Positions 1,641 through 25,615 of a stretch of DNA of 64,000 nt are shown one piece after another. The first letter of the stretch is position 1. The number at the start of each line of letters is the position of its first letter. The stretch covers positions 3,239,199 through 3,303,198 of the forward strand of contig CP000875.1 of NCBI GenBank assembly GCA_000018565.1, read 5' to 3'. The notes below the pieces were generated by a model. It had not been told where the DNA came from. It saw nothing but the letters and a program-made list of their open reading frames with translations, and searched no databases. The position numbers were made by a program, and so were the translations under genes. Origin of the DNA: Herpetosiphon aurantiacus DSM 785. Lineage in GTDB: Bacteria; Chloroflexota; Chloroflexia; Chloroflexales; Herpetosiphonaceae.

Positions 1641-2696
1641 TTACTGCGGTGCATCGGCGAGCACAAAAATATCTAAATCGCGGTCGCTATTGATCAATTT
1701 GGTTAGCAACGAGCCGCCACGCAGCTCGTCCCAACGTGAGCGCACAGGTCGCCCAATAAAGATCCCAGTTGCATGTTGCTCATGGGCCACTTGCAACATC
1801 GCCGCCGCTACATCTTTTTCCTCGATAATCACCACTTCATGGCACAACTCTTCGGCATAATCGAGATGTTCACGCGCCGCCAAACGATAGCCACTCGAGC
1901 CACCGCCAGGCGGGCGAATATGCACCCCAATCAGCAATGCGCCCATTCCATAGGCCAAGTCGGCGGCGCGTTGCAGCAAATACATCGCACTAGGATTAAA
2001 GCCAATGCCCACCAGCCAACGCGGGCGTTCGGCACTATCGCTCAGTGGGCGGCGAATTTCCAGCAAAGCATGGGTGGCAGCACGGAGTTGATTGAGCACA
2101 TCAAGCCGCAACGCAGTCTGACGGGCCTGCTCAGCATCGGGTGGTGCAAGCAAAATGCCCTCATCCAACTGGCGAATAATATCGGTTGGCTCAGGGTCGA
2201 TCAACACCAGTTCGCTGGCCTGCTCCAAGGCACTTTCAGGGATAATCGGACTAGGCGTGATGTTGGTTAGGCGGGTATAAATTGGCGCAATCGTGGTCAG
2301 ATTATAGGCATAAATTGTTGACCACACCGCAATACCGGCCATGCGCAATTGCTCAACCAACTGCAATGGCTCAATCGGCTGATTGGATAGGCCATGTTGA
2401 TGGGCTAAATTGCCTAGCACAATAATTTGGGGCGGGTCGTTGAGGATTGTCGCTAGATCAAGCGCCTCGATTCGTTGATTGTTCTGGCGCTCATAAATTA
2501 ACGGTAAAGGCCGCAAACCACGGGCAAAATCGCATAGATAGTCGCTCGAAGCATTAAAGGCAATCCCAACATCATAGCCTTGTGCCGCTAACAACTGGGC
2601 ATCGGCCATCAAGCGTCGGGTGCAGCCAATGCCTGGCGCTAAGCTCAAATAAATGCGATGTTCGCCATAACGGTATGAAGCGGAATCAGATCGCAT
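1641..2696 (-). CDS. KdpD N-terminal-like + universal stress protein (USP) domain, no kinase
   Basis: Residues 10-210 match the N-terminal sensor domain of the KdpD potassium-sensing kinase (IYLSLAPGIG near residue 15, then a GYDVGIAF strand). Residues 225-350 match the universal stress protein fold that follows it in KdpD (WLVGIGFNPSA; ATGIFIGRP). The membrane, GAF and histidine kinase parts are absent, so this is a short KdpD-like protein. The Walker A-like loop reads APGIGCT, where KdpD has APGVGKT: the lysine is replaced by cysteine, so ATP binding may be lost. A GAGGT ribosome site precedes the ATG. No kdpFABC genes are nearby; instead it is the fourth gene of the YYY membrane-protein operon. 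Role inferred: cytoplasmic stress or ion signalling without its own kinase. Confidence 0.75.
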   Translation of the reverse strand: MRSDSASYRYGEHRIYLSLAPGIGCTRRLMADAQLLAAQGYDVGIAFNASSDYLCDFARGLRPLPLIYERQNNQRIEALDLATILNDPPQIIVLGNLAHQHGLSNQPIEPLQLVEQLRMAGIAVWSTIYAYNLTTIAPIYTRLTNITPSPIIPESALEQASELVLIDPEPTDIIRQLDEGILLAPPDAEQARQTALRLDVLNQLRAATHALLEIRRPLSDSAERPRWLVGIGFNPSAMYLLQRAADLAYGMGALLIGVHIRPPGGGSSGYRLAAREHLDYAEELCHEVVIIEEKDVAAAMLQVAHEQHATGIFIGRPVRSRWDELRGGSLLTKLINSDRDLDIFVLADAPQ

Positions 2697-2741: not shown

Positions 2742-3254
2742 TCAATCGCGTGCCAAGAGCATTTCAGGCAAAACTCGGACCACTATCGGGCGGCCTCGCA
2801 AATCGCGTTGGCCATAGAACAAAGCTCGTCCAGCTTCTAACTGCTCAACCTGCTTGGCCAAGGTCGGGTTAGCCAAGCCAAAACCCAGCAAAAACGCCCC
2901 AAAGAAGATCGTAAATGCGCCACCAAAGGTATAGCCGCTGGCAAAAGCCAAGAATGCCCAAATTGCCCAGACCCAAATTGGTAATGGTTTAAGTGTTGGC
3001 AAAGGCTGAAAATCGCGGGCAGTCTCAGCCTTCAGCAAGCGTTCGCGCAGTTTACGCCAATTAATCTTGGTTTGGTAAACATAAATTCCAACTGGAATGA
3101 CCACGCCAATCGCCAGCATGCCCAGCAAATCATTCAGCTTAAAGCCAAATTGGCTAATTTCCGAGCCAAGAAACAGCAGGCCAAGCGCGATCAAAACAGC
3201 ACCAGCAATACTCAGCCAACGCCCAACTTGGCGTAATTGTTCAGTTAAGCGCAT
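2742..3254 (-). CDS. Hypothetical membrane protein, 170 residues
   Basis: Two hydrophobic hairpins (about residues 12-32 and 42-62, then 92-112 and 114-132) are separated by a basic stretch (KINWRKLRERLL), and a polar C-terminal tail of about 40 residues follows. No known domain was recognised. GGAG lies 8 bases before the ATG. The start is 9 bases after the stop of the preceding YYY-domain gene, so it is almost certainly co-transcribed and may be an accessory subunit. Confidence 0.7.
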   Translation of the reverse strand: MRLTEQLRQVGRWLSIAGAVLIALGLLFLGSEISQFGFKLNDLLGMLAIGVVIPVGIYVYQTKINWRKLRERLLKAETARDFQPLPTLKPLPIWVWAIWAFLAFASGYTFGGAFTIFFGAFLLGFGLANPTLAKQVEQLEAGRALFYGQRDLRGRPIVVRVLPEMLLARD

Positions 3255-3263
3255 CGTCTGCTC

Positions 3264-5678
3264 CTATGGTTGTACTTGATAGATGATCCAGCTATCGGCT
3301 TCGTAAACTTTGCTGGCAACCTGTTCGAGCAAGCCAATATTGGCCTGTGGATAGGCTTTTTGCTCGTTTGGCCCCCACACCACATAATCGACCCGCTGGC
3401 GAGCCAAAACTTCGCGCAGTTGATTGATATCGGTGGCATTGTAAATTGCGCTGATATCGCCTTGGCGTTGCGCCACTTGCTGATTTGCATCAGGCTGTTT
3501 GCTGCGCCATAAACCTTCATGCGAGCCGGGCCAAGCTAATAAGGTTGGCCGACCACTCAAGGTTGCTAACTCACCGCCATCTTGATAGCTGCTGCCAGGT
3601 GCAGTCGCCAAAACGCTGTTGCTTGGTGTGTTGGCTTCAAGCCAGGCAGCGGCTTTGCGCATTGGCTCGGAAAAGTGTTGGGAACTTTCTACTGCATCAA
3701 GCTTCGAGCCACTTGCATCCCACGAGGGCGAAGTTGTAGGGTTAAGCACTGAAATTGGGTAGACTAAGCCGCCAGCCAACAAAAGCCCAAATAATGGCAA
3801 CCAAATGCCATTCGTCCAGCGTCGCCATTGGGCATTGCTCAACAAGCCCCAAATACTAGCAGCAGCACCAATTCCCAACAGCATCCAAGCCTGATAATAG
3901 ACCTTGAAAACCGTGTTCATGCGATTATCAAAAATGTCACGCAGATACAGAAAATCGACAACTACAATCAATAAGGCTGCCAAACCAACCACGATCAAGC
4001 TAAAGTTTTGCACATCGCGCTGATTGCGTTGCCAAGCTGTTTGCCAACAGATCACGGCAATCGGCAAAAAGACAATCGCCGGAATGCCGGCAATTAAGCC
4101 AATCAGCAGCACCGCGCCAGTCATAGCCCATAATTGCCAAACCTTGATCGTGCGGCTGAGCCAAGCAATAATCGGCACTAAGAACAAGCCAAAAATCGCC
4201 ACTAAATCAGTCCAGCCAGAGTGATCACGGGCGGGAGCCATAATTTTGCCCAAGCTGCCAATAATTGGAATACTGGCAAATGGGTCGGGCACGGTATCGC
4301 GGCCTGCAAATGAGCTAAATGTGAGCAGGAACGGCATATACAACAATGCCGCCGCCAAGACCACTAAACCAACTTGACCTGCAAGCTGTAGCCAATCGCG
4401 GCGGGTTGGTTGCGGTGTATGCCCACGCCACAAGCCAACCAAACCCAAGGCATACAACACACCAAAGGTCGGGGCATCCCACGAATTGGCTGCATATAAG
4501 CCGCCAATCACCAAGCCAGCTATCGCCAATTCAAGCCAATCGTGCTTTGGGAAACGGACCATCGCTGGCCGGACAAAAATCGCCAAGGCCAAAGCAATCG
4601 CCAACAACGTCAGCGGAATCGACAAAACATGCGGGTGCATATCGGCAAGATAAAAGCTGAAGAAGGGAAACTCGGTGATAATCTCACGCTGAGACATCCC
4701 CATACGTTGCTGATTATCGACAATGATCATGGTTTCTTCGTGATCATCGTAGATTGCACGCGACGATGGCCAAGCTTCAAATTTCTCGCCCATTGGTGGC
4801 AAGGTCGAGCTTTTAGAAATGCCAGTATTTTCTGATTTTAGCGTGGCGGGATCAAGCGTGGCTGGCTCAACCCCCTGAATTGCTTGCCACAAGACTGAAA
4901 CCCGTTGGCTATCGGTTAGTCGATTAACTTCCGCAGAATTGACGATCTTCTGTAAAGCGCCAATTTGGTTGCCTGCAAACAGCACCAATACGCCACCAAA
5001 CAAACCAAGCGCAGCAATTGCGATTAATCGGAGACGGGATAGCAAATACTCACGCCACCACAAACCCGCCATAGTTGTGACTAAACCAACAATCCCAAGG
5101 CTGGCCAAGCCCATAATCGTGGCCAAACCAAGATTAAACGTTTCGCCAAGCGTCGCGCCACTGAGCACGCTCAATACGCTGATCAGCACATAGCCAAAAT
5201 AATAATAATTAACGCTAAATCCGGCCAACCACAAATCGCTTGGTGGATAGCTTGGACTATTCAGCACAGCGCTAAACAGCATTGATTCCATTGGTTTTTC
5301 GGTGCCATGAATCCCTGAGCCAAACATCCCATGGAAGCGCAATTGAATGCCCAGCAAAAAAACCAAAGCAAACAACAACTCATAGGCCAGCCATTGCGGC
5401 CAATATTGGCGAATTGCTGCCAACAAACGGGCTTTATCAAAAGGTTGTTGCACAAACCAACCGAGTGTGCCCAAGCCAATTAAGCCCAAGCCAACCGTCA
5501 CGCCATCGAAGCCCGAAAGATTGAGCATAGCGCCCATCCAAGCGATCCATGCAACAACCAACAAGCCTAGCGCTTTGCTCCATGCCAAGCCCCGCCCTGG
5601 CAAATGCCCAAATAGGCGCATACTCAAAGGCAGCGCGAGAGTTCCAATTAAAACGATGCTTAGCCACCAAGCAATCAT
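3264..5678 (-). CDS. Chlor_Arch_YYY (DUF2298) integral membrane protein, single-domain class
   Basis: An 804-residue, strongly hydrophobic protein with more than a dozen predicted membrane segments. It carries the family's marks in order: GTEKPME near residue 125, the NYYYFG motif near 157, EFPFFSF...ADMHPH near 334, and RMNTVFKVYYQAW near 586, followed by a soluble extracytoplasmic C-terminal domain ending in YQVQP. Family knowledge: DUF2298 proteins occur in Chloroflexota and some archaea and are thought to be GT-C-like membrane glycosyltransferases; the reaction is unproven. The start lies 9 bases after the stop of the giant paralogue, so both architectural classes of the family are made from one transcript. 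Confidence 0.9.
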   Translation of the reverse strand: MIAWWLSIVLIGTLALPLSMRLFGHLPGRGLAWSKALGLLVVAWIAWMGAMLNLSGFDGVTVGLGLIGLGTLGWFVQQPFDKARLLAAIRQYWPQWLAYELLFALVFLLGIQLRFHGMFGSGIHGTEKPMESMLFSAVLNSPSYPPSDLWLAGFSVNYYYFGYVLISVLSVLSGATLGETFNLGLATIMGLASLGIVGLVTTMAGLWWREYLLSRLRLIAIAALGLFGGVLVLFAGNQIGALQKIVNSAEVNRLTDSQRVSVLWQAIQGVEPATLDPATLKSENTGISKSSTLPPMGEKFEAWPSSRAIYDDHEETMIIVDNQQRMGMSQREIITEFPFFSFYLADMHPHVLSIPLTLLAIALALAIFVRPAMVRFPKHDWLELAIAGLVIGGLYAANSWDAPTFGVLYALGLVGLWRGHTPQPTRRDWLQLAGQVGLVVLAAALLYMPFLLTFSSFAGRDTVPDPFASIPIIGSLGKIMAPARDHSGWTDLVAIFGLFLVPIIAWLSRTIKVWQLWAMTGAVLLIGLIAGIPAIVFLPIAVICWQTAWQRNQRDVQNFSLIVVGLAALLIVVVDFLYLRDIFDNRMNTVFKVYYQAWMLLGIGAAASIWGLLSNAQWRRWTNGIWLPLFGLLLAGGLVYPISVLNPTTSPSWDASGSKLDAVESSQHFSEPMRKAAAWLEANTPSNSVLATAPGSSYQDGGELATLSGRPTLLAWPGSHEGLWRSKQPDANQQVAQRQGDISAIYNATDINQLREVLARQRVDYVVWGPNEQKAYPQANIGLLEQVASKVYEADSWIIYQVQP

Positions 5679-5687
5679 AACAACTCA

Positions 5688-8600
5688 CTATGGCAGGTTC
5701 TTCAAGCGCTCCTGCGCCGAACCTACCCACAAGCCCTCGGGCGGGGCAATACTCAAATAGGTTTCGTATTCGCGGCGAGCTTCGGCGTTATTGCCTTGCA
5801 AACGATAGACTTCGGCCAGATGGTAGTGTGGGTCGGCAAATTGGCTATCGGCAATAATCGCTGCACTAAATTGTGCCGCCGCTGCATCAAGTTTGGTGCG
5901 GTCAAGCTCGGCCCAAGCAAAATAGCCTTGACCAAGTTTGGTTTGGTTTTGCGGGGTTGGACCAGCATTATAGGCCTGTTCATAGGCCAATACCACTTGA
6001 TCGTAGCGTTTCAACGAGAGCAATACATCGCCCAAAAGATGGTGCAAGCCAATATCGTTGGGGTGAACATCGGCAGCACGACCCAAAATCGCCGCCGCGC
6101 GATCAGCCTGCCCCGCTTGCCACAATTGCTTGCCTGCCTCGAAAGCATAACCAGCATTGTTAGGGTCGCTCTCATACAAGGCTACCGCTGCTTCAACTTG
6201 GTTACCCGCCTGATCAACTGGCGTATTCGGCACAACTGGCGCTGGTACAACTCCATCACGCCATTGCATCGCCAATTCGCGTAGTTGCGGTGTAGTTTTA
6301 TAAATCGTAACACTATTGTTTTGATAAACTTGCTGCACCCCAGCCATGGTTACAAATTTATCAACGCCCATCGGGTCGCGCAAACGCTCAATCTGGCCAA
6401 CATACACATAATCTACGCCATATTTATTGAGCAACCATTGAGTGCGCAACACATCAAGGCTACTATACATCTCCATCACATCGCGGATGCGTTGATCAAC
6501 CAATGGGCCAGGCCGTTGCTCACCAGCATGCAAGGCGCTGATCACGGTTGGCAAACCAGTGTTGGCGGTGATCCGTACCCCAAAAGCCCGATAAAATTCT
6601 TGCTCCGATTGCAGCAAAATTTCGGTGCCAGTGATGTTTTCGGTGATCCAGCGAATCGCAGTTAAATCGTCGGCCAAATTGACCACACCATTGTTGACGC
6701 TATATTCGGCAGTTTGCATATAGGCCAAACCATCGAGGGTCAAGCCTTGCAAGGGTTTATCGAAGCGCATACCAACACGGCTGAGTGTGCCAAAAATTGG
6801 GAAGAACAGCGCCAATACCACCCCAACACTAACCGCCGTTTGCCAGCTATATTTGGCAACCCGCGAGTTACGTAAAGCTGAGGCAATATGCGGCAAAAGC
6901 AAGGCCGCACTCAACGCCCACAAGACCCAAACTTGATAGCCAAATTTGAAGACTGTGTTCATGCGCTCAGAATCGCCCGGGCCGCCGTCCCACGAGCCTG
7001 GCGCAAGGTGATCGCGGATGAAAATCAGCTCAATACCCAAGGCCACCAATCCGCCAACCAAGCCTAGCACAATCGCCCAACGTGCTGAGGGCGAGGCCAC
7101 ACGGTTGATAAAGCGTCGAATTAAGCCCGCCAACAGCAGGCCAATCAGCAAACGCACCGGAATGCCAGCGCTGAAAATTGGTTTGTAAATCGTCGCTAGA
7201 TCCGGCAAGACCGAAGGCTCAGTAATCGCGCTTTTGGCGGCATCGCTGCGGGTTAAGAAATAGACGATCACGGCGGCGGCGGCCAACCCATAACCAATCA
7301 GCCAGCGCCCGCGTGTCGCCTTAACCCAATCCCAGAATGGCGTTGGCTCGGCTCGTTTGAGCGGCAACAACAACCAGGTTGTGATCATCAGCAAAAAGAG
7401 GCCATAAATCGCCAACCATGGCACTAAAGCCGTGCCCACCCGAATCGGCCAAACCCCGCCAACCGGAGCTTTGTAGCTGCCCAAGAATGGTGCATACAGC
7501 AGCAAACCAAGCGCAACCGTCGCCACGCCCAGCAAACTATAGCCCAGCGTCGCCCACCAACGGCGTTGCGGTGCTTGCCAACCACGCGCCATCAAGCCAA
7601 CAATCAGCACCAAACCATAGGTTGGCACATCCCAGGCATTGGCTGCCGCCAGCGAACCAACTGCCAAAGCCGCCAAACCAAAGGCGGGCAATTGTCGGCG
7701 CAAGCGTCTTCGTCGGCTCACTTCCCACGCCAAGGCCACCACCAGCAAGGTAATTGGCAAAGCAATCAGGTGCGGGTGCAAATCGGCAAAAATCACGCTC
7801 CACAGCGGAAATTCATTAATCGTGTTCAGGCCATCGCTAACCGTGACCCGACTTGGCCCCCAGAACCATGGCACGCCGCCAGCTAAGCGCCGCGTGAAGT
7901 TTTCGCTTGTGCCATTGGCCATCGCATCGCTGATCATCGCAGCTAAGTTGCTGTCGCCATCGAGCGGAGCACAAGCGGTTTCGCGACCTTCGCCGCCCAA
8001 CTCGCAGGCCTGCCAAGCTCGCACCACCCCGCCAATTCCGGTTGAGGTGCCAATTGGCAATACGCCTGCTAAATTACCGAGCAAAGCCACCGCAACCAAG
8101 GCCATCGCCGCGACTTTGAGCCGCCGCGTAACCACCAAGCCCACTGCCCACGCGCCAATCCCGATCAATGCGCCAACCGTGGCAACCGCCAAATTGAAGC
8201 CAATCGCCGAGTTGAGGCCAAAGAGTTTCATCGGCAAGGCCATCAGATACAGGCCATAGTAATAGTAGTTGATCGTGCCTTGCGAATAGAAGGGATCAAG
8301 CGGTGGCATATTGGGCGAACGCAGCACCGCATTCAAGAAGCCAAATTCAAAGGGCTTTTCGCCGCCCCAGTAGGGATGCCACAAATCAGGGTTGGCAGCC
8401 CGAACCAAGGTCCAGACCGCAAATAAGCTGATAAACAGCACTTCGCTGATGATAATTGCTCGCCGTTGTTGCCGCCACGCTTGGCGAATGCGTTGAGCTG
8501 CGCCAAAATACCAAGCCGCCAGCGCCAACGCCGCCAACATTGCCAAACCAACAATCACGCTCAGTCGCGTCCATTGCCAAAAGCCCAAGCTGGTTGGCAA

Positions 8601-11600
8601 CCAAATCAGCCAACCAAGCAGCAAAATACCCGCGATTTTGCTGGCGCTCCAAGCCGCTGCCAACGACGAACGCAAGGCTTGCGCCACAATCGGAAAAGCC
8701 AACAAACCGACAACTTCAAAAAACAGCAACCACAACAGCACTGCCGCCGCTTGATTTTGGTTAATCCAAGCCCAATCGGCGAAGCCATCGACCCGTGGGG
8801 TTTCGACTTTATTGTCAACCGTCGCTTGGGGCAAGGGCTTTTCGGCCATGCTAATTGCCGCAACTGGATTATCGGGCGGAATACCTGGCAACTCGACTGG
8901 TGGCAAGGCGGTTGGCGCTGGCACTTTCGCATCAGTGCGCAGGTAGATTTGGGTTGTGCCGCTATCATAAGCCACGCGCCAGCGCCCCGAAGCTTTGAGT
9001 TGCTCGAAAACTGGCAACAAATCGCCATAGACTGCTCGTTCCAAGCCACCAAGGTAAATCACGCTCACGCCATAGCGATCAAGGTAATTTTGGGCGGTAT
9101 TAGGGTCAAACGCGGTATAAATTTGCTGAATGATATTTTTGCGGTTGGCGATAATGCCTGCTGCTTCGGCGGGCGCACGTTGCTGATTCTGATGCCCATC
9201 CCAACCAATCAAGGTTGGCAGGCCAGTCCATGTCGCAATTCGGCTGTTCCAACGATAGGCTGAGGTACTGGCTTCGAGCACGGTTGGCGTGCCCTCAATG
9301 TTCGCTCGCATCCAACGAATTGCCGCCGCATCATCTTTAATCGCAATTTCGCGATTTTCGACCCACGTCGCGCCTTCCATCCAAGCCATGCCATCAAGCC
9401 CACGCGGCGCGTCGGCCACATAGCGATCCGCAACCTTGGCTTGGGTGGCAGTAATTGGATAGACCAAAGCACCCAGCACCAACAAACTGGTAACGGTTGC
9501 CCACGAAATGCGCAACGGAGCTGCCAATGCCGAACGTACAACGCTACGGAAGGCGCTCAAGGTCAATGGCACAACGCTGGCAGCAGCCAACGCCAAGAGT
9601 GCCCAGGCTTCGTAGCCAAACTTAAAGACCACATTCATGCGGCCAGCACCAGGCAGCACAATCGTTTCGGTCAAGAGCAAGAGCAAAATGCCAGCACTGG
9701 TCAAGGCCAACGGCACAACTTCGCGCCGTCGGGTGCGGCCAGCCAAGGCGCTCCACAACAGGGCAATACTCCATGCCGTCAAGGGCAAAAGAATCACGAT
9801 CGATGCCGCGCGTTGGGCAATTGCCTGTTTGAATAAATTATTAATCAACAGCGCAATTTTACTTGGCTCAACGCTCATATCGAGCAGGGTCACGCGATCT
9901 TGCAGCAAACTAATCACGGCCATCCAAATCAGAGTTGAGCCAACTCCAATCAAGGTGCTGCGAATGCCCCAAATCCGTCGCGCGAGCAGCAGCATCCATG
10001 GAATCAAAATCCAGAACCACAGGCCATAGAGCACGGTAAATTCGCGAATGCTCATGCGTTGGTCGTTAGTCAGCAATTGGGGTTTGCCATAATCGCCGGT
10101 TGCTAAATAGCGGTTGAATGGCGACCAAACCACGGTCATCGCCACAAACAGGGCAATTGGCGGGAGCACAATCCACAGCCAACGCTTGGGCCAAGCCACA
10201 GTGCGGCTTTGTTGCCAGCCGACCACCAACAAGGCAACAGCGGATAATGCGAGGCTCAACGGATAATCCCAAACATTGGTGGCTTTGAGTGCGCCGACCA
10301 AAATGCCTAGCGCTATGCTCCAACCAGCCAACGCTCGGCCTGAAATCGTTGGTGCTTTGTACAAGCCAACTAAGCCGAGCAATAGCAAGACGAGCAGTGA
10401 AAGCCCAATAATGTGGGCATGCAGATCACCATATAAAAATGAGAAGAAGGGGAATTCGCTGATTGTGCTGGGCGGAATTACTCGCGTGGCGTTCCAATAC
10501 GGCCATTCGGGGCGCAAATTGAACGATTCGCCATCGAGCCGTTTAGCAAAGCCCGCAGCGGCATCAGCCACGGGCGAACCACCCTCAAGCCAAATGCCTT
10601 GGCTCGATTGTTCAGGATTCGACCAACTCAATTCGCTATTGCCCAAAACCCGCGCACTGTTGAAATAGAAGACAGGCTGAACTAAATTGCCCAAGAGCAT
10701 CAAGGCTACCGCAGCGCCAACTGCCGTAAAACAAGCACGGCGTTCGATTTTTTTGGCAGCCCGCCCAAGCGTTGAAAGCAAATTATAGCCAAAACTACCA
10801 CTTAATTGGGCCGTCATTGCAAACAAGCTGATTAATGCTAGATTAAAGCCAACCTCAGGCCGAATCGCCAACAATTTCATTGGCGTGCCCATCAGCACAT
10901 AGCCCCAATAGTAGTAATTCATATAGCCGCCCGCAAACCATGGGTCATACGGCGGGAATTGCACCGATTTGAGCGTGGCCGTGAGGTAGGCCAAATTCAT
11001 GGGCTTTTCGCCGCCCATGCCTGGATGCCACAAATCGGGGTTGAGATAGCGAATGGTTAGCAAAATTGCAAAGCCAGCTAAATAAATCGCTTGCGAGGTG
11101 AGAATTGCCGCGCGGCGGGTTTGCCACCACAAGCGTAACTCATGGCGCGAACGTAGCAAACTGAGGCTGCCCAACGCCACCAATACCAGATATACTCCGG
11201 CGATCCAGAAGCGATTGAACGACCACCAATGCCAAGCCGCTGGGAGCCACGCGATCAAAGCGAGGGCAAATAAGCCGACTAGCCGTGCCATGCCCAAACC
11301 GCGATCAGGCAACGGCAATTTCAAGCGCCAGAGCAAGCCAAACGCTGCTAAACCCAAGAGTTCAAGCGCCAGCACCCAAAAGATCAATGGAGCACTATTA
11401 GCAACCCCTTCAAAAACCCAAGCCCATGAGCCAGAAGTCAACTGTTCGCGCCATTCGGCCACAGTTTGCTGAAGCATGGTTGGCATGGGCGTGGCAACTT
11501 TGGGCCGTAGTTTATAAATTTCATCAACATTCACATCGGCCAAAATTTGCTGCCGTGCCGCGTCAATATTCCAGCGTTCAGTGCGCTTCCAAATCGTCAC

Positions 11601-13478
11601 CCGCGGATGATCGTAGACGCTCCAATCTTCGGTGGCGTGATCATCGGCAATCCGAATGCCCAAAAATGAGGGGTAGGATGTGAAATCGGCAACTTTTTCA
11701 TAGCCCAGCGTGCCATCAAAAATGCCTTTGAAGAAATTGAGCGTGGCCGGAAAACGCATCGGCAATTGATCAAGCGAATCGTAGGCACGATTTGAGGTAA
11801 AAGCCAAATAGTTGGCTTGGTTGGCAACTTGCAGAATTTGCTCAATCGAGCCAGCATCATTTTCATTAACAATTGGCAATTGGATATCAGTCCAGATCCA
11901 ATTTTCCATGCCTGGAATGCCAATATCCCACGAATCTGAGGTGTGGGTGCTGCCTGGAGGAATGTTGGCGTGTGCCCATGCTGAGGCCTGAGTGCGGGTA
12001 TGTGGGCGATCATAAATGCGGCTAAAACCCCAGCCCCAAAGCAGGGTTACAATCGCCACCATGCTGGTTAGGCCAACTGCTAAGCCATGCAACGGCACTT
12101 TGCGGAAGAGCAATGGTGTGCCTTCGCGCCGCGCCCAATCGACCAAGCTAATCAAGCCCCATGCCGCAAATAAAATCAATGGGCCATAAATCGGCAGCAA
12201 ATAGCGCATCGGCTTGATCATTAAGCCGCCCTGCCAGAAGAAGTAAATTCCTGTCCAGAGCCAGATTGGCAAAAGCCCCAACAAGCGCTGACGCGATTCT
12301 GAGCGCCACAGCGCAATCCCAAAGGCTAGCCAGCCCAGCCAAGCCGCCACACCCAAAGGTACGCCCATGCCCCAACGAATCATGTTGGTCAATTCGTAGG
12401 TGTAGTTGCTACGGCCTGCCCATTGATGTGATGATGGGGCATCGACCTCGCCCGATGATGTTGCACTAGCATTCGCAATTGCATTGACAAAGCGTTCTTC
12501 AAACCAAAAACCATTGAAGGCATCGGGCATGCTAAATCGCAGGGTGAACCACATTACTAAAAAGGCGAGGACAGCAAATGGCAAGGCATAAATGCCGCTC
12601 CACAAGAGCCGTTGAAAGATTGCTGCTGGCGAATGATCACCGCGCAAATAAGCCGGATTATGCCAATAGGCCACCATCGCGGCAATTGCAATAACCCCGC
12701 CAAGTGGCGCAAGCGTGATTTTGCAGGAGACGGCCAAAGCCAACGCTGCGCCAGCAAATATGGTGTTGAGCAGGGAACTCCACCAGCGCCGCGATTGAGC
12801 TAAACGAGTGCTAGCATATAAAGTCAACAGGCCATACATCGCCGCCTGACCATCGACCACAAAAAAGTGCGCATGTTGAATCAGTGCTGGCGACCAAGCA
12901 AAACAAAAACCCGCCAACAAGCCAATCCGGCGGCTGTTGAGCGTGCGGCCCAGCAAAAACAAGATGACGATTGAAATCAAATCGGCAATTGAGGAAACAC
13001 TACGGCCAACTACAGCAATTGTGCGGCTGGTCAGTTGGTCTGGTTCAATTTCAGGGTAGAATTTTTCGGTTAAGTAGCGCACGGTTGCCACAGGCAATGA
13101 GCCATAGACATAGCCACGATCGACAGTACGCGGGTTGAGTGAGTTACAGCCGCTGGTTGCAGTAGGGCGTTGTTTGCTAACATCAGGTTCTTCAGGGTTA
13201 CGCGCATTTTTGAGTTGGGCCACACCCTGATCGTTCAGCACAATTTCGCATTCAGTGGTGAGATAACTCCAAAACGAATCGGGCACGCGCAAATTGGGCG
13301 TGATCGCATCCTTTAAATAATACTCATCGGGGTGGATCAACGGGGCATAGCCATCCCAATCGGCTCGATGAATCGAGCGAACGCCCCAAGCCATCCAGAG
13401 AATACCCAACAAGCAGAGCAAACTGATCAAATCGGGGAAGCGTCGCCCCAAGGCACGCAGCGCAGCGAAACGTGGCAT
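5688..13478 (-). CDS. Giant membrane protein: GT39-like domain + two Chlor_Arch_YYY domains + TPR
   Basis: 2596 residues. The ATG at 13478 is preferred over an upstream one because it follows an AGGGTGA ribosome site and gives a normal basic N-terminus. Residues 1-640 resemble a dolichol-phosphate-mannose-type (GT39/PMT) glycosyltransferase, with HPDEYY near residue 50 in the first external loop. Two complete YYY domains follow: NYYYWG near 853, EFPFFSF...DLHAH near 1009 and RMNVVFKFGYEAW near 1279; then NYYYYG near 1736, EFPLWS...DLHPH near 1888 and RMNTVFKFGYQVW near 2172. Residues about 2420-2590 are tetratricopeptide repeats. This is the known two-copy architecture of the family. Inferred role: transfer or polymerisation of lipid-linked sugars, with the TPR tail recruiting partners. 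First gene of a five-gene minus-strand operon. Confidence 0.9.
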   Translation of the reverse strand: MPRFAALRALGRRFPDLISLLCLLGILWMAWGVRSIHRADWDGYAPLIHPDEYYLKDAITPNLRVPDSFWSYLTTECEIVLNDQGVAQLKNARNPEEPDVSKQRPTATSGCNSLNPRTVDRGYVYGSLPVATVRYLTEKFYPEIEPDQLTSRTIAVVGRSVSSIADLISIVILFLLGRTLNSRRIGLLAGFCFAWSPALIQHAHFFVVDGQAAMYGLLTLYASTRLAQSRRWWSSLLNTIFAGAALALAVSCKITLAPLGGVIAIAAMVAYWHNPAYLRGDHSPAAIFQRLLWSGIYALPFAVLAFLVMWFTLRFSMPDAFNGFWFEERFVNAIANASATSSGEVDAPSSHQWAGRSNYTYELTNMIRWGMGVPLGVAAWLGWLAFGIALWRSESRQRLLGLLPIWLWTGIYFFWQGGLMIKPMRYLLPIYGPLILFAAWGLISLVDWARREGTPLLFRKVPLHGLAVGLTSMVAIVTLLWGWGFSRIYDRPHTRTQASAWAHANIPPGSTHTSDSWDIGIPGMENWIWTDIQLPIVNENDAGSIEQILQVANQANYLAFTSNRAYDSLDQLPMRFPATLNFFKGIFDGTLGYEKVADFTSYPSFLGIRIADDHATEDWSVYDHPRVTIWKRTERWNIDAARQQILADVNVDEIYKLRPKVATPMPTMLQQTVAEWREQLTSGSWAWVFEGVANSAPLIFWVLALELLGLAAFGLLWRLKLPLPDRGLGMARLVGLFALALIAWLPAAWHWWSFNRFWIAGVYLVLVALGSLSLLRSRHELRLWWQTRRAAILTSQAIYLAGFAILLTIRYLNPDLWHPGMGGEKPMNLAYLTATLKSVQFPPYDPWFAGGYMNYYYWGYVLMGTPMKLLAIRPEVGFNLALISLFAMTAQLSGSFGYNLLSTLGRAAKKIERRACFTAVGAAVALMLLGNLVQPVFYFNSARVLGNSELSWSNPEQSSQGIWLEGGSPVADAAAGFAKRLDGESFNLRPEWPYWNATRVIPPSTISEFPFFSFLYGDLHAHIIGLSLLVLLLLGLVGLYKAPTISGRALAGWSIALGILVGALKATNVWDYPLSLALSAVALLVVGWQQSRTVAWPKRWLWIVLPPIALFVAMTVVWSPFNRYLATGDYGKPQLLTNDQRMSIREFTVLYGLWFWILIPWMLLLARRIWGIRSTLIGVGSTLIWMAVISLLQDRVTLLDMSVEPSKIALLINNLFKQAIAQRAASIVILLPLTAWSIALLWSALAGRTRRREVVPLALTSAGILLLLLTETIVLPGAGRMNVVFKFGYEAWALLALAAASVVPLTLSAFRSVVRSALAAPLRISWATVTSLLVLGALVYPITATQAKVADRYVADAPRGLDGMAWMEGATWVENREIAIKDDAAAIRWMRANIEGTPTVLEASTSAYRWNSRIATWTGLPTLIGWDGHQNQQRAPAEAAGIIANRKNIIQQIYTAFDPNTAQNYLDRYGVSVIYLGGLERAVYGDLLPVFEQLKASGRWRVAYDSGTTQIYLRTDAKVPAPTALPPVELPGIPPDNPVAAISMAEKPLPQATVDNKVETPRVDGFADWAWINQNQAAAVLLWLLFFEVVGLLAFPIVAQALRSSLAAAWSASKIAGILLLGWLIWLPTSLGFWQWTRLSVIVGLAMLAALALAAWYFGAAQRIRQAWRQQRRAIIISEVLFISLFAVWTLVRAANPDLWHPYWGGEKPFEFGFLNAVLRSPNMPPLDPFYSQGTINYYYYGLYLMALPMKLFGLNSAIGFNLAVATVGALIGIGAWAVGLVVTRRLKVAAMALVAVALLGNLAGVLPIGTSTGIGGVVRAWQACELGGEGRETACAPLDGDSNLAAMISDAMANGTSENFTRRLAGGVPWFWGPSRVTVSDGLNTINEFPLWSVIFADLHPHLIALPITLLVVALAWEVSRRRRLRRQLPAFGLAALAVGSLAAANAWDVPTYGLVLIVGLMARGWQAPQRRWWATLGYSLLGVATVALGLLLYAPFLGSYKAPVGGVWPIRVGTALVPWLAIYGLFLLMITTWLLLPLKRAEPTPFWDWVKATRGRWLIGYGLAAAAVIVYFLTRSDAAKSAITEPSVLPDLATIYKPIFSAGIPVRLLIGLLLAGLIRRFINRVASPSARWAIVLGLVGGLVALGIELIFIRDHLAPGSWDGGPGDSERMNTVFKFGYQVWVLWALSAALLLPHIASALRNSRVAKYSWQTAVSVGVVLALFFPIFGTLSRVGMRFDKPLQGLTLDGLAYMQTAEYSVNNGVVNLADDLTAIRWITENITGTEILLQSEQEFYRAFGVRITANTGLPTVISALHAGEQRPGPLVDQRIRDVMEMYSSLDVLRTQWLLNKYGVDYVYVGQIERLRDPMGVDKFVTMAGVQQVYQNNSVTIYKTTPQLRELAMQWRDGVVPAPVVPNTPVDQAGNQVEAAVALYESDPNNAGYAFEAGKQLWQAGQADRAAAILGRAADVHPNDIGLHHLLGDVLLSLKRYDQVVLAYEQAYNAGPTPQNQTKLGQGYFAWAELDRTKLDAAAAQFSAAIIADSQFADPHYHLAEVYRLQGNNAEARREYETYLSIAPPEGLWVGSAQERLKNLP

Positions 13479-14109: not shown

Positions 14110-17100
14110 CTATGCATAAATATACTCATAGCACACCAAGGTCAGATCATCGCGGGTAATCATGCTAACGGGGCCACTCGGCTCAAGATTGCTGCGACCT
14201 TGGGTTTGGTAAAGTTCGCGTAGCACCTCAAGCAGCGCAAGCAAATCGTTGTCGGCGTTGTAGCGATTGAGCGTTTTACGCAAACGTTGCACGACCGCGC
14301 CAACTTGGGGTTCTTTGAGCATTTTGCGCAATTCGCGCACTTCGCCGCGATCAACGCCAGGCTGTGCAAGATTGTTGTGGAGCAATTGGGCGATCACGTT
14401 TTGTTCCGGTGCAACGATTTTATCGACCACCGTCGCCGTGACTTGTTGCTGAACATCGCGCAAAATGCTGTTGAGAATGGTGTCGTGGATGGCGAAAATA
14501 TCAACTTCGCTATAGGGCGGGGCAAAGCGTGGCGTATCTGGGCTACAGGCAATCAGCTGCATAATGGTGTAGCGATTATCGGTAATCGTTTGTTTTTCAA
14601 GGTCGTAGTAGCGCCAAAAATGGGCGGTGCTGCCATCACGCGGCGCAGTGAAATAGAAAAACAGGCCTTTGGCATTACGTCGCTCAATCCCCGAATGAAT
14701 CCCATCATCAAGGTCGGTCAGCCAGCGTTGGGCATCGGTCGCCAGCACATTTTGCAATTCGGCAAATAATGATTCGCTGCTCGCTAGCTCCAAAAATGAT
14801 TCTTGTTCCTCGATCACGCTATGATCTTCGTCGGCGATGCGCTTGAGCGTGTTGAAATCGCGCGGCGTAACGACTTCGCCCAACACGCTAGCATCTAAAA
14901 AGCCCGTTTGGTTGATCAAATCGATTTTGCTGGTCAGGCTGCGCACCAAGCCCAGCAAAGCTTCGAGTTCGCGCTCAGGAAACATATTGTACACATGCAG
15001 CAGATCGAAATTCGAGCCAAGCCGATCGATCCGGCCTGCCCGTTGGACCATGCGCGTCGGGTTCCAGTGCAAATCGTAGTTGAGCAAATGGCCGCAATCT
15101 TGCAAATTATGGCCCTCGGAAAGCACATCGGTGGCGATCAAAATTTGTACTTCGTCGCTTGTGCCAACCAATTCGGGTTGGTTGCTGGCGCGTGGCGCAA
15201 AATGGCTCACAATTCGCGTCCGATCGGTCGTTTTGACGCTGCTATCAATGCGCCGAATTGTTGGATTGCCAAGCGTGGCCAGCCATTCAGCATTGCTTGC
15301 CTCAGTCAAGGCTTGATAGACATAGCGGGCTGTATCTTTGTAATAGGTAAAAATCACCACTTTGCAGCCGTTGAGTTGGCTGGCAAGTAGGCTTTGCAAT
15401 TGCAGCAATTTGGCATCGTGGCTGGCTTGAATGTGTTTAATCGCATGCCAAATTTCGTTCAGCGCATCAATATCTGCTTGCAAAGCCCGATGCAAACGCC
15501 GCCGATCGTATTTACTGGCCTCAAGTTTGGGCAGTTTGGCAATAATCAGGCTGGCGGCGGCATGCTCATCAAGCGCCGAGGCCTGCGAACTGGGCGTGCT
15601 ATCGTCGCTATCTTCTTCGTCGGCTTCGAGCAAGCGCATGGCCTGCTGAAACGACACCGAATCGAGCACAATCCCATCTTGCACATATTCGGCAAAGGTT
15701 TTGACAAAGGCCAACGAACGGCGAATTGAAATGCGAAAGGCTTCGATACTCGATTCGAGCCGCTTGAGAAAGCGACTTTTGAAAATACCCACCAGCGCTG
15801 CTTGTCGCCCCAGCTCAAATTCATCTTGGTCGCTGGGGCGCAGTTTGTAGGCCTCAAGGTTGTAGTGAGCGAGATGTAGGCCTTCGATTGAACCAATAAT
15901 ATTTTGATATAAGCCACTGTAGGCCGCTTGTAAATCGTATTCGACGCTGTGCAGTTGGCGGGTTGGCCAGCGAATTGGCTCGCCATGAATCAGCGCTTCG
16001 GGGTAGGCTCGCCGAATAAATTGGCGCGTGCGGCGAATCACCACTTCTTCGAGCAGGTTAAAGATGCGAATCGAACCAGCTTCCAACGATTCGCACCGCG
16101 CTGCCAAGAAATATTTGTATAAATCGCCGATGCCAGCCGAAGCAAAGTAGCTGCGGTCGTTGCCGGTAAACAGATTAATTTGGTTGTATAAATCGAAAAT
16201 ATTGTTGTTAATGGGGGTGGCGGTCAGCAAAATCAGCTTTTTGCGGCTACCGCTGCGCCCGCGTCGCCCATTGGCCGCCAGTAAAAGCTCAAGTTGTTGG
16301 TAGCGTTTGGCGCGTTTGTTGCGAAAGTTGTGGGCTTCATCGACCAAAATCAGATCAACATCGAAAAACTCGCGGCCATCAAATTCGTCGAGGCCCAACC
16401 GTTCTTGGGTCAGCACTTGGGCGGCGATCGTGGCGCTGTGCAATTCACGCTCCCACATGCCACGCAGCGAGGCCGGACAAATCACCAAGGCTTTTTGGCG
16501 CTGATGGTAGGCGTAATCTTCCAGCAGTTTTTTGCCAATCCAAGTTTTGCCCAAGCCCACCGAGTCGGCGACAATCGCGCCATCGTATTGGGCTAAAATG
16601 CGCCGCGCCTTGCGCACTGCATCTTCTTGAAATTCGGCTAGCTCAACCGCCGAACGGGTGGCTGGTTGTTGGTCGCGCTCAGCTAAATCATCTTTAAAAT
16701 AGGTATACAGCGCTTTCATGTAAATTTCGTAGGGGCTATATTCGCGCCCGCCAAATTTGGAGTTTTCCAACAGTTCGATCAATTGTTCTTTATAATCAAG
16801 CGCATGCTGCCATTGTTGCTCATACCAACGCGAAAGATCGAGAATAGCTCGCGTGCCAATTTCGCTTTTGAGCATGCGTTCATGTTCAAGTTCAAGCGGC
16901 GCAGCACTCAGTTGGGCGGCATGCTGGGCAACCGTAGCTTTAGCTTCAGCATCATCAAGCTCAGCGTCGGTGAGCAGGGTTTTGTGCACCAAATTTAGTT
17001 CATGATTGCTGACCAAGCCTGGCCCAGTGAAATTGCTGCTGCCCACAATGCCAACAATCGGCGTGAGCGGATCAAACACATTGGCAGCGGGCAAGCGACC

Positions 17101-17505
17101 ATACAATAAATAGCATTTGGCATGCAAAAATGCGCGGCGGCCTTTTTCGCCAGCCAACAAGCCCGTATACAAACGCACCTCAACCTCGTCGCGGCGCAAA
17201 AAGCGAATCAGCTGTTCGACTAAGCGCAAGGTGCGTTCAGTAAAGGCTTCGGCGTTCAGTTCATGGCGCAAAAACGCGCTCGAATCGGGTCGCATACCCA
17301 AATCATCAGCTGCCACTGGTTTATCGCCCAGCAGTAAACGCACTTGGCCTGTGGTTTCCAGCTCGTGGCGCAGCTGTTCAAAGCCGCGAATGCTGAAATA
17401 GGCCGTGGCAATATCTAGCGATTGGTCGCTCGCTCGGCTCAGTAAGTAGCGCAGCACGTCGGCGAGGCGCTGCTCAATATTATCAATCACATAGGGAATT
17501 TGCAT
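14110..17505 (-). CDS. PLD-like nuclease + SNF2-family helicase (defence-type)
   Basis: 1131 residues. Residues 1-230 form a phospholipase D-like domain with one active-site motif (HAKCYL near residue 128, GSSNFT near 155), as in DNA-cutting PLD enzymes that act as dimers. Residues about 290-900 are a superfamily-2 SNF2-type motor: GLGKT (Walker A), DEAHNFRN (motif II), TATPINN (motif III) and QRAGRIDRLG (motif VI). The rest is helical. Such PLD-helicase fusions accompany DNA methylases in DISARM-like and other restriction-type defence loci, where the helicase probably translocates on invading DNA. AAGGT lies just before the ATG. It follows the methylase locus on the same strand, separated by a GC-rich repeat. 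No drmA/drmB-like genes are present, so it is not a standard DISARM. Confidence 0.88.
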   Translation of the reverse strand: MQIPYVIDNIEQRLADVLRYLLSRASDQSLDIATAYFSIRGFEQLRHELETTGQVRLLLGDKPVAADDLGMRPDSSAFLRHELNAEAFTERTLRLVEQLIRFLRRDEVEVRLYTGLLAGEKGRRAFLHAKCYLLYGRLPAANVFDPLTPIVGIVGSSNFTGPGLVSNHELNLVHKTLLTDAELDDAEAKATVAQHAAQLSAAPLELEHERMLKSEIGTRAILDLSRWYEQQWQHALDYKEQLIELLENSKFGGREYSPYEIYMKALYTYFKDDLAERDQQPATRSAVELAEFQEDAVRKARRILAQYDGAIVADSVGLGKTWIGKKLLEDYAYHQRQKALVICPASLRGMWERELHSATIAAQVLTQERLGLDEFDGREFFDVDLILVDEAHNFRNKRAKRYQQLELLLAANGRRGRSGSRKKLILLTATPINNNIFDLYNQINLFTGNDRSYFASAGIGDLYKYFLAARCESLEAGSIRIFNLLEEVVIRRTRQFIRRAYPEALIHGEPIRWPTRQLHSVEYDLQAAYSGLYQNIIGSIEGLHLAHYNLEAYKLRPSDQDEFELGRQAALVGIFKSRFLKRLESSIEAFRISIRRSLAFVKTFAEYVQDGIVLDSVSFQQAMRLLEADEEDSDDSTPSSQASALDEHAAASLIIAKLPKLEASKYDRRRLHRALQADIDALNEIWHAIKHIQASHDAKLLQLQSLLASQLNGCKVVIFTYYKDTARYVYQALTEASNAEWLATLGNPTIRRIDSSVKTTDRTRIVSHFAPRASNQPELVGTSDEVQILIATDVLSEGHNLQDCGHLLNYDLHWNPTRMVQRAGRIDRLGSNFDLLHVYNMFPERELEALLGLVRSLTSKIDLINQTGFLDASVLGEVVTPRDFNTLKRIADEDHSVIEEQESFLELASSESLFAELQNVLATDAQRWLTDLDDGIHSGIERRNAKGLFFYFTAPRDGSTAHFWRYYDLEKQTITDNRYTIMQLIACSPDTPRFAPPYSEVDIFAIHDTILNSILRDVQQQVTATVVDKIVAPEQNVIAQLLHNNLAQPGVDRGEVRELRKMLKEPQVGAVVQRLRKTLNRYNADNDLLALLEVLRELYQTQGRSNLEPSGPVSMITRDDLTLVCYEYIYA

Positions 17506-17550
17506 GAGCTTACCTTTTGTATGATTTACGAAGGCTATTGGTGTTACGTT

Positions 17551-17660
17551 CCCTCACCCCAACCCCTCTCCCACTGCGGCGGGCGAGGGGCATTCCAATG
17601 ATCATGATTCGGGTGCTTCCCCCTCGCTCGCTTGCGGGAGAGGGGGCTAGGGGGTGAGGG
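17551..17660. repeat. GC-rich hairpin repeat between methylase and helicase genes
   Basis: One copy of the CCCTCACCCCAACCCCTCTC ... GGGGGTGAGGG family. It fills most of the gap between the two defence genes and could fold in the transcript. Confidence 0.75.
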
Positions 17661-17666
17661 CATCGC

Positions 17667-18707
17667 CTAAATCCGCAATAGCTCGAAGGCCCATTCGCGC
17701 AGTTGCTCGGCCTCGCTGCGTGGAATAACTTCGTCGTGGGCGGCTTTGTTGCGCAATTTGAGCATGGCTTGGTTGTTCAGCACTTCAACCAAACCGCCAG
17801 CCCCAAACACATTGCGGTTGCCAAAACGCTGGCTCACAAAACTGCGCAAGGCTTGCTCTTTGTTGCTGCGCAAGATAATCGGGTAGTTGCCCAAGGTTAG
17901 GTGACGCTTGCCCAGCATAAATTCGGCTAAAAAGTCGTTGCGGCATTCGTTGGCTCCATAGCCCGATTCGTCGCGAAAGGGCTTGAAGATTGCTTCATGC
18001 AGCAGGGTTTCGACCGCTTTGGTGAAGGGGATTACGCCGATCGAGAAATCCATGGTTTCGTCGTCGGTCAGCAGGCTATATTCGCCAGTCCGTAAAAATG
18101 TGGGAATATCGGGCGGGAGGTTGCGCCAATCGGGCAGCGCAGCATCAAGCGTCGCTTCAATGCTGATCGGCTCGACCCGTTCGAAGAAGCGTTCAGCTGC
18201 TGGCAGAATTTCTTCGGCAATTTTGTCAATTACGGCATCGGTTTGTTCGTCGCTGGTCGCTGCGCCCAATTCTTTGAGTACGTTGGCTTTGGCTTCGCTC
18301 AGGGCTTGCTCATATTGCGGGCGTTCGATCAGCTCAATCTCGGCGGCGCTCAAGCCATACAAACGATAGACAATTTTGTCGATCAAGGCATCAGTGCGGG
18401 CTAAATCGGCCTTGATTGGCAGTAATTCATCGAGCGATTGGCGGTAGGCTTGGGCAATGCTGGCTTCGATTTCGCTGAGATTGGCGGCAAAACGATTGCG
18501 GTTTTGTTGCAGCCGATACCAGAAGTCGCTCCAACTGACGGCGCGTTGGCCTTTTTGGTAGTCGCCAAGGTAGCCTTGGATGATCGTTTTGCCCGTCAGG
18601 CTGTCGAGGCCAGTTTCGCCTTTTTTGGGCTGAATCCGTAGTTGGCTTTCGAGCCAATTCAAGAAGCGCTTGCTGGCTTGTTGCTTGGCTTTGTTCAGCT
18701 CGATCAT
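17667..18707 (-). CDS. C-terminal part of the Eco57I-class methylase, now out of frame, with HEPN-like end
   Basis: 346 residues from the first ATG, but the frame is open further upstream, through YGDVVHDLLAYLAQQ and into the 5-bp repeat. There is no ribosome site before the ATG, so it is probably not translated alone. The first 100 residues (MIELNKAK..., RLYGLSAAEIELIE) match the usual C-terminal helices of Eco57I/PglX-type methylases, so this belongs to the gene upstream. The last 60 residues carry RNKAAH (an R-x4-H motif) in a helical context, reminiscent of HEPN ribonuclease or nucleotide-binding domains; this is tentative. A gain of one repeat unit or a loss of two would fuse it to the methylase body. 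Confidence 0.7.
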   Translation of the reverse strand: MIELNKAKQQASKRFLNWLESQLRIQPKKGETGLDSLTGKTIIQGYLGDYQKGQRAVSWSDFWYRLQQNRNRFAANLSEIEASIAQAYRQSLDELLPIKADLARTDALIDKIVYRLYGLSAAEIELIERPQYEQALSEAKANVLKELGAATSDEQTDAVIDKIAEEILPAAERFFERVEPISIEATLDAALPDWRNLPPDIPTFLRTGEYSLLTDDETMDFSIGVIPFTKAVETLLHEAIFKPFRDESGYGANECRNDFLAEFMLGKRHLTLGNYPIILRSNKEQALRSFVSQRFGNRNVFGAGGLVEVLNNQAMLKLRNKAAHDEVIPRSEAEQLREWAFELLRI

Positions 18708-24615: not shown

Positions 24616-24624
24616 AATATATCC

Positions 24625-25605: not shown

Positions 25606-25615
25606 ACTTATTCTC

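Follow-up and report, generated by a model that had tools for sequence, protein, structure and literature searches.

Predicted GT-C fold and sugar-lipid gene partners of a fused DUF2298/YYY protein and its stand-alone neighbor in Herpetosiphon aurantiacus

INTRODUCTION

What is done by a membrane protein of 2596 residues, and by the smaller protein encoded beside it, when the family that both represent is annotated as of unknown function? The two genes lie in a stretch of 64,000 nucleotides of the soil bacterium Herpetosiphon aurantiacus DSM 785 (contig CP000875.1, positions 3,239,199 to 3,303,198), here called the window, from whose first letter coordinates are counted. The family is known as DUF2298 (PF10060) or Chlor_Arch_YYY (TIGR03662), two names for the same group, and is referred to below as YYY. 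Fold, topology by the positive-inside rule, conservation, co-occurrence, gene order, and the order-wide fusion were computed here. On these grounds, the pair probably represents extracytoplasmic glycosyltransferases of the C-type fold (GT-C), which would take sugars from polyprenyl phosphate and, with no need of an oligosaccharyltransferase (OST), assemble an envelope glycan or attach it. The genes are the following.

5688..13478 (-): giant gene of 2596 amino acids (aa), comprising a PMT/ArnT-like GT-C module, two YYY modules (YYY1 and YYY2), and tetratricopeptide repeats (TPRs); based on the open reading frame (ORF), PF10060, TIGR03662, and TPR matches, and domain limits from hidden Markov models (HMMs).
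3264..5678 (-): stand-alone YYY (DUF2298) gene of 804 aa, 9 bases downstream of the giant; based on the ORF, family matches, and a model with a GT-C fold.

RESULTS

Domain composition and number of YYY copies

Translation from the ATG at 13478, which is preceded by an AGGGTG-like site, yields the 2596-aa giant; the frame is open further, up to a TTG at 13553 (2621 aa). Nine bases lie between its stop codon and the ATG of the 804-aa gene. ORF coordinates and spacing thus bear out the giant with a single-domain neighbor that had been described in an earlier note on this DNA, made from the sequence alone (the original prediction).

The 804-aa protein matched PF10060 and TIGR03662 once each, with 303.2 and 435.1 bits, and the giant matched them with 635.5 and 974.1 bits, spread over two stretches (cut-offs, 27.8 and 300.25 bits). 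Scores above these curated cut-offs, together with the motifs, assign the 804-aa protein and both YYY modules of the giant to the family. All three copies in the window have NYYYxG, EFPxxS, DxHxH, and RMNxVFK, as had been claimed, and pairwise identity among the copies is 25.0 to 29.9%. In the whole 6.79-Mb genome (6,785,430 bases in 3 contigs, the largest of 6,346,587), PF10060 matches exactly three places. The original prediction had counted three related membrane modules in the chain and a fourth YYY copy next door, which was a miscount: the giant contains one different GT-C module (residues 1 to 689) and two YYY modules, giving three YYY copies when the neighbor is included. An HMM of 24 YYY domains set the limits of the YYY modules.

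11412..13478 (-): residues 1 to 689, PMT/PMT_2-type GT-C module with a predicted extracytoplasmic C-terminal domain; Pfam scores, model, and fold matches.
9000..11411 (-): residues 690 to 1493, YYY1 (DUF2298/Chlor_Arch_YYY module); HMM, 794 bits; EKP at 824, YYY at 855, DLHAH at 1018, RMNVVFK at 1280.
6345..8756 (-): residues 1575 to 2378, YYY2 (DUF2298/Chlor_Arch_YYY module); HMM, 783 bits; EKP at 1707, YYY at 1738, DLHPH at 1899, RMNTVFK at 2172.
5691..6344 (-): residues 2379 to 2596 (218 aa), C-terminal tail with TPRs, predicted to be extracytoplasmic; TPR_19, 45.0 bits; TPR_16, 41.3 bits.

The TPR matches at the C terminus agree with the TPR part proposed for the giant earlier. No hydrophobic segment follows residue 2232, and because none lies between the TPR arm and the extracytoplasmic C-terminal domain of YYY2, the arm is expected outside. 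Both the single-copy architecture and the one that combines an N-terminal region with two copies and TPRs are reportedly covered by the NCBI record of TIGR03662 already.

Predicted fold of the YYY protein and the N-terminal module

The 804-aa protein was modeled using AlphaFold2 with 23 relatives (predicted local distance difference test [pLDDT], 82.9; predicted template modeling score [pTM], 0.90). All of its ten best Foldseek matches in the PDB were GT-C enzymes, including OST, AftA, and PglB, and the top matches were AglB (7e9s; E value, 7.5e-7) and DPY19 (8.5e-7). Superposition by VIA-align yielded Z scores of 17.8 for Pmt4 (361 residues, 4.8 Å), 16.4 for DPY19 (481 residues, 8.2 Å), 16.1 for yeast OST, 15.8 for ALG12, 15.2 for AglB, and 12.8 for ArnT. 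Residues 667 to 803 alone matched the C-terminal domain of archaeal AglB (3vu0) with a Z score of 9.8 over 114 residues at 2.6 Å. For the N-terminal module of the giant (AlphaFold, 26 sequences; pLDDT, 86.0; pTM, 0.88), ArnT (27.9), AglB (27.2), and yeast OST (27.2) were tied as best fold matches, with Pmt4 slightly lower (25.3). Judging from the models, the 804-aa protein and the N-terminal module are thus predicted to have a GT-C fold with an extracytoplasmic C-terminal domain; YYY1 and YYY2 would share it by homology to the 804-aa protein. The original prediction had proposed GT-C enzymes, a reading that a fold lacking a GT-C core could refute, and a GT-C fold is what the models of the 804-aa protein and of the N-terminal module predict, so that the reading withstood this check.

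Scanned alone, residues 1 to 689 scored 30.9 bits against PMT_2 (cut-off, 26.1) and 27.0 bits against PMT (cut-off, 22.7), and PMT matched 22 of the 26 aligned GT modules at E values up to 0.01; both families were unlisted in the whole-chain Pfam scan of the giant. The label GT39, given to the module earlier, is therefore retained in part: the PMT and PMT_2 gathering scores are passed when the module is scanned by itself, but by these scores and fold matches it is not separable from other PMT/ArnT-like GT-C families. Against TIGR03663, residues 1 to 640 reached 23.0 bits, below the cut-off of 126.25, and the module is accordingly not a member of the Agl23 family. A first-loop acidic pair was identified as follows.

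13323..13334 (-): HPDE, residues 49 to 52 of the GT module; D51 and E52 are invariant in 26 aligned modules.

A search of the GT modules for the pattern HPD[EA] gave no match in that of locus L131. The module resembles PMT (GT39) and ArnT in gathering scores, the first-loop DE pair, and fold; unlike them, it is fused to two YYY modules, and no MIR domain was found in it. When YYY and the GT module were compared profile to profile, only the C-terminal part aligned, with a probability of 13.9%, so that the kinship of the two rests on fold.

Topology and putative active site

Helices were taken from the model, loops were assigned to alternating sides, and lysine and arginine residues were counted over 24 aligned YYY sequences. 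Their frequency per residue was 0.177 in inside loops and 0.074 outside, or 0.058 when the C-terminal domain is left out. None of the eight inside loops fell below 0.145, and none of the nine outside stretches exceeded 0.118. Of the 34 residues that are invariant in these sequences, 29 lie outside, 5 within helices, and none inside. The claim that the DxHxH and YYY motifs face loops as in GT-C active sites is consistent with this positive-inside test, which places the invariant motifs outside. In the 804-aa protein, they are located as follows.

5298..5300 (-): E127 (in GxEKPM), invariant first-loop acidic residue; 24 of 24 sequences, and 92 to 100% in seven classes of 169 domains.
5199..5207 (-): Y158 to Y160 of the YYYxG motif, placed in the first extracytoplasmic loop by the positive-inside test; the same in all 24 sequences.
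4629..4643 (-): D346-x-H348-x-H350 (DMHPH), putative metal site where the second large extracytoplasmic loop ends; the same in all 24 sequences.
3903..3923 (-): RMNTVFK (586 to 592), on the penultimate helix at its extracytoplasmic end, with basic residues that may bind phosphate; invariant R586, M587, N588, F591, and K592 in 24 of 24.

Further invariant residues are R307 and E336 in the second large loop, N398, W400, and D401, and H720 and R725 in the C-terminal domain. A first-loop acidic residue, a GT-C trait, is represented by E127 in YYY, on the outer side by the positive-inside test, and by D51/E52 in the GT module. Among the metal and catalytic residues of AglB, a passage of PMC7226087 names D47, D161, H163, and R154. 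By analogy, E127 and D346-x-H348 of YYY resemble the AglB metal site, in which an Asp (D47) is combined with an Asp-x-His (D161/H163). YYY is like AglB, STT3, and PglB in its predicted GT-C fold, an AglB-like C-terminal domain, and an Asp-x-His in the second large loop, and differs from them in its loop motifs and the absence of WWDYG.

Six core residues (E127, D346, H348, H350, R586, and K592) were present in 92 to 100% of each class among 169 YYY domains, 18 of them archaeal, and YYY2 of the giants retained all six in 14 of 14 cases. At least two of the six were changed in YYY1 of locus L035 and in one of the YYY copies of L126; only fragments are left of YYY1 in L118, which stands outside this count. 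The giants at L035:2571-9908 and L118:7989-14990 combine a degenerate first YYY module with an intact second one, and YYY1 is recognizably complete in 13 of 15 giants. The altered copy of L126 (4273-6465, minus strand; genome G162), one of two there, carries E127D, D346T, and H350F.

Gene neighborhood and co-occurrence

Proteins flanking YYY were clustered, and the clusters were named from one or two representatives each. Among the named loci, 44 had a TIGR03663/Agl23-like protein, 14 an FAD amine-oxidase-like protein, 12 a flippase-like protein of the LPG_synthase_TM family, and 11 a GT4 glycosyltransferase. The order in SAR202/Dehalococcoidia is YYY, TIGR03663, flippase-like, and FAD enzyme, and that in an archaeal locus (L182) is TIGR03663, FAD enzyme, GT2, flippase-like, and YYY; the archaeal loci L167, L168, L181, and L183 contain the same module with parts missing or rearranged. 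One of these (L167:3709-13346, plus strand) has two adjacent stand-alone YYY genes in the order Agl23, FAD enzyme, GT2, YYY, YYY, flippase-like, and GT2.

Partners were also counted using HMMs built from members of the same loci, which for Chloroflexota comprised 61 named and 19 unnamed loci of at least 10 kb. Flippase-like genes lay beside YYY in 17 of the named, 7 of the unnamed, and 6 of 21 archaeal loci, and the FAD enzyme in 14, 3, and 10, respectively. The sole background, 20 control regions of 16 kb each at hand-chosen rather than randomly drawn places, contained no TIGR03663, flippase-like, or FAD enzyme gene; GT2 occurred in 2. A link with lipid-linked glycan genes had been named as a check on the original prediction, and the conserved neighbors do belong to lipid-linked sugar pathways.

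Across 201 sampled Chloroflexota genomes, 133 contained YYY (E value below 1e-50) and 130 contained TIGR03663 (E value below 1e-25), all 130 being among the 133. In 196 archaeal genomes from the phylum of a Methanoperedens, YYY was detected in 96 and TIGR03663 in 98, with both in 95, YYY only in 1, and TIGR03663 only in 3. Both also match in Haloferax volcanii, a control genome. Agl23/TIGR03663, the flippase activity-associated protein, is thus a constant genomic partner; its representative matches Pfam PMT_2 and is GT-C-like, and it belongs to a family other than the GT module of the window. Its link with TIGR03662 is reportedly mentioned in the NCBI record of TIGR03663. When purified, Agl23 from Haloarcula hispanica flips a lipid-linked glycan across membranes (PMC11182771).

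STT3 (PF02516) had no match in the whole host genome, in a search whose sensitivity to bacterial PglB was uncontrolled. Strong STT3 matches (E value below 1e-15) occurred in 4 of 201 Chloroflexota genomes, among which G162 alone has a strong YYY; weak matches in 54 others may be cross-matches of other GT-C proteins. The absence of PglB-type enzymes is less sure, since the STT3 control genomes gave matches in archaea only. Two of these control genomes, Haloferax volcanii and Methanosarcina acetivorans, have both YYY and STT3.

Distribution and origin of the giant

A YYY frame of more than 2000 residues was found in all 19 sampled genomes of the window's order, that of the window included, with lengths from 2113 (cut by a contig end in G070) to 2774. 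Outside this order, no YYY frame among the matches listed exceeded 1858 residues; the common form elsewhere is a GT-YYY fusion of about 1400 to 1900 residues followed by a stand-alone YYY. In locus L132, a 619-aa GT gene adjoins a separate 793-aa YYY gene, the split counterpart of the fusion. A TPR tail is present in 14 of 15 long-tailed proteins (in the fifteenth, L098, the tail is out of frame after a run of N), and is absent from 144 others, whose tails are 81 aa or shorter. The closest named relative found was Herpetosiphon giganteus, with 86% identity.

In a FastTree phylogeny of 169 YYY domains, from which incomplete domains were left out and for which the program warned of long branches and uneven composition, a branch separated the first in-chain YYY modules from all other rows (14 of 14; support, 99), and the second formed a group of 14 plus 1 extra row (support, 100). 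Both sets, together with 33 GT-YYY modules and 3 others, constitute a 64-row group (support, 100). The stand-alone YYY of the window is not part of it and groups with other stand-alone copies, in a set of 16 rows. Because of this grouping, the giant most simply appears to have arisen by YYY duplication inside a GT-YYY fusion and gain of TPRs, and the stand-alone neighbor appears to be an older paralogue of the in-chain modules. Its origin as a recent duplicate of an in-chain module was rejected, given the 25.0 to 29.9% identity and its position outside the 64-row group. Two loci from an Acidobacteria bin (L078) and a Bacteroidetes bin (L095) were kept in the set and are taken for possible misbinning. 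In two loci from genomes of the window's order (L118 and L119), GT4-like and methyltransferase-like proteins are encoded near the giant, and L118 also has a further large membrane protein, by a look at the sequence.

Genes around the pair

Downstream of the YYY gene, again after 9 bases, a 170-aa protein (2742-3254, minus strand) is encoded that had no Pfam match at an E value of 0.001; the gene order is the same in Herpetosiphon giganteus (L034). The second gene downstream (1641-2696, minus strand) encodes KdpD sensor and Usp domains without the kinase part, as in a KdpD-like non-kinase potassium sensor. Directly upstream of the giant lies an apparent defense island (14110-27181, minus strand), with PLD (HKD) and SNF2 helicase domains at 14110-17505 (PADLOC HKD+Snf2, 212.6 bits), a methyltransferase resembling DrmMI/type IIG at 18427-23379 (290 bits), and a phospholipase effector at 24625-25668 (275 bits).

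DISCUSSION

The occurrence of the same kind of enzyme beside recurring sugar-lipid genes in bacteria and archaea suggests a function in the building or attachment of cell-surface sugars. In the mechanism that we consider probable, a cytoplasmic GT2 enzyme would make a polyprenyl phosphate sugar, which would cross the membrane, perhaps with the help of its Agl23-like partner or its LPG_synthase_TM-like one. The four GT-C units, namely the PMT/ArnT-like module, YYY1, YYY2, and the stand-alone YYY, would then each move a sugar from this donor to an acceptor outside. The site would be formed by the first-loop acidic residue (D51/E52 in the GT module, E127 in YYY), joined in YYY by D-x-H-x-H and the basic residues of RMNxVFK. 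TPRs at the outer face would hold the acceptor, most plausibly a protein, so that several transfers share one scaffold. The transfer itself, the number of active units, and the division of labor between units are what we infer; that the donor would be a polyprenyl-phosphate-linked sugar follows from the family and its neighbors.

Several points weigh against this proposal. A PDB sequence search with the YYY profile found no relative (one unrelated designed protein appeared at an E value of 0.51), and for this reason the candidate catalytic residues were matched by position and analogy rather than by a structure-based residue alignment. The Fisher P values for co-occurrence of YYY and TIGR03663 (1e-50 in Chloroflexota and 5e-51 in archaea) ignore relatedness. 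In the host genome, all partner families are present and scattered over at least three places away from the YYY pair, where TIGR03663 genes lie at 4.85 Mb, a flippase-like gene is paired with an FAD enzyme gene at 3.551 to 3.554 Mb, and a GT2 at 5.088 Mb has 51% identity to the GT2 beside YYY in L126; linkage in this genome is accordingly co-occurrence only. In Chloroflexota, TIGR03663 lies beside YYY in 43 of the 61 named loci and in 11 of the 19 unnamed ones, but it does so in only 4 of 21 archaeal loci, and GT2 does so in 11 of 21 archaeal loci but in 0 of 61 and 1 of 19 of the Chloroflexota. The archaeal neighbor counts are low in part because YYY itself was lost by ORF picking in 4 of the 21 locus windows (L171, L173, L176, and L177), and because TIGR03663 is often about 8 kb away, at or beyond the edge. 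Degeneration of YYY1 in 2 of 15 giants (L035 and L118) implies that this module is not always a transferase. In the published work searched for DUF2298, the YYY names, and TIGR03662/TIGR03663, no enzyme activity or functional study was found; in the part concerned, PMC8756737 only lists DUF2298 beside a PMT2 gene. A literature search on Chloroflexi envelope glycosylation listed nothing on this locus.

The nature of the acceptor is the weakest step. A protein is our tentative preference, at rather less than even confidence, because the TPRs stand in the same place as those proposed to recruit the acceptor protein in the animal O-mannosyltransferases TMTC1-4 (GT105) and in TMEM260 (GT117), which likewise have a GT-C module followed by extracytoplasmic TPRs (PMC11292533, in part). 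Unlike the giant, these proteins have one GT-C unit each, and the TMTC family was not among the 14 Pfam families listed for the giant at E values up to 0.1. The main rival reading keeps the enzymes and changes the acceptor to a growing envelope polysaccharide or glycolipid; the pair would then be an array of GT-C polymerases comparable to the Emb/Aft enzymes of mycobacteria, with TPRs organizing the complex. Emb and Aft arabinosyltransferases are GT-C enzymes that build envelope glycan from polyprenyl phosphate sugars and have carbohydrate-binding modules instead of TPRs. That the fold matches include AftA, AftB, AftD, and Emb enzymes, that several GT-C genes lie side by side, and that GT4 glycosyltransferases accompany YYY in 11 Chloroflexota loci make this a serious possibility, if a doubtful one. 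It is also consistent with the GT2 enzyme AepG of Haloarcula, which, according to a passage of PMC9943897, makes dolichol phosphate-glucuronic acid for exopolysaccharide and not for S-layer or protein glycosylation. The Emb/Aft enzymes are separate chains with a glycan acceptor. Both the extracytoplasmic TPR tail, which resembles that of protein-acceptor GT-C enzymes, and the AglB-like C-terminal domain of YYY argue for a protein, although neither is decisive.

Other readings change the role of YYY itself. It is somewhat unlikely that only some units are catalytic, with the extra YYY modules serving as scaffolds or acceptor-binding parts and the fusion having no function beyond stoichiometry. 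Such a role would explain the degenerate YYY1 of L035 and L118 and the L126 copy that lost E127, D346, and H350, but YYY1 is complete in most giants and YYY2 keeps its six core residues in every case counted. We regard as improbable a flippase or scramblase of lipid-linked sugars that retained the GT-C fold without being a transferase. The constant partner, itself PMT_2-like, is an experimentally shown flippase of lipid-linked glycan (PMC11182771, in part), which lends this reading some weight; on the other hand, the invariant residues cluster on one extracytoplasmic face, the set of acidic residue, DxHxH, and Arg-Lys resembles a GT-C site, and the gene module already has a separate flippase-like family. 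There is equally little to be expected of YYY as an OST that replaces STT3 for en-bloc N-glycosylation. AglB was the best Foldseek match and the C-terminal domain matches that of AglB, and strong STT3 is rare among Chloroflexota; yet YYY coexists with STT3 in Haloferax volcanii and Methanosarcina acetivorans, and is therefore not simply its replacement. Membership of YYY among the OSTs was rejected, as WWDYG occurs in 0 of 169 YYY domains and PF02516 is unmatched in the host genome.

Taken to its full extent, our preferred reading of protein-acceptor glycosyltransferases would describe a glycosylation assembly line, in which three tandem GT-C sites add successive sugars to a TPR-held protein, with a fourth unit next door, in a host without an OST. 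It would derive from a module for polyprenyl phosphate sugars that is of ancient origin and common to Archaea and Chloroflexota, with YYY, GT2, Agl23-like, flippase-like, and flavin enzyme genes, and would thus represent a second cross-domain route of surface glycosylation besides that of STT3/AglB. As a whole, this version is unlikely, if conceivable. The fold, topology, and candidate active site of YYY, the origin of the giant, the wider cross-domain gene module, and its scattered form in Herpetosiphon are new here, insofar as they were not found in published work.

DUF2298/YYY is an abundant membrane family annotated without function; in the archaeal phylum, 96 of 196 genomes have a strong match, and in the Chloroflexota sample 133 of 201. 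Its placement among GT-C proteins, a candidate active site, a constant partner with known flippase activity, and a gene module that Bacteria and Archaea have in common make it a testable enzyme. The fused chain of three GT-C units with an extracytoplasmic TPR arm would be a natural glycan assembly line in the membrane, and the giant may be the bacterial counterpart of TPR-guided O-glycosylation in animals.

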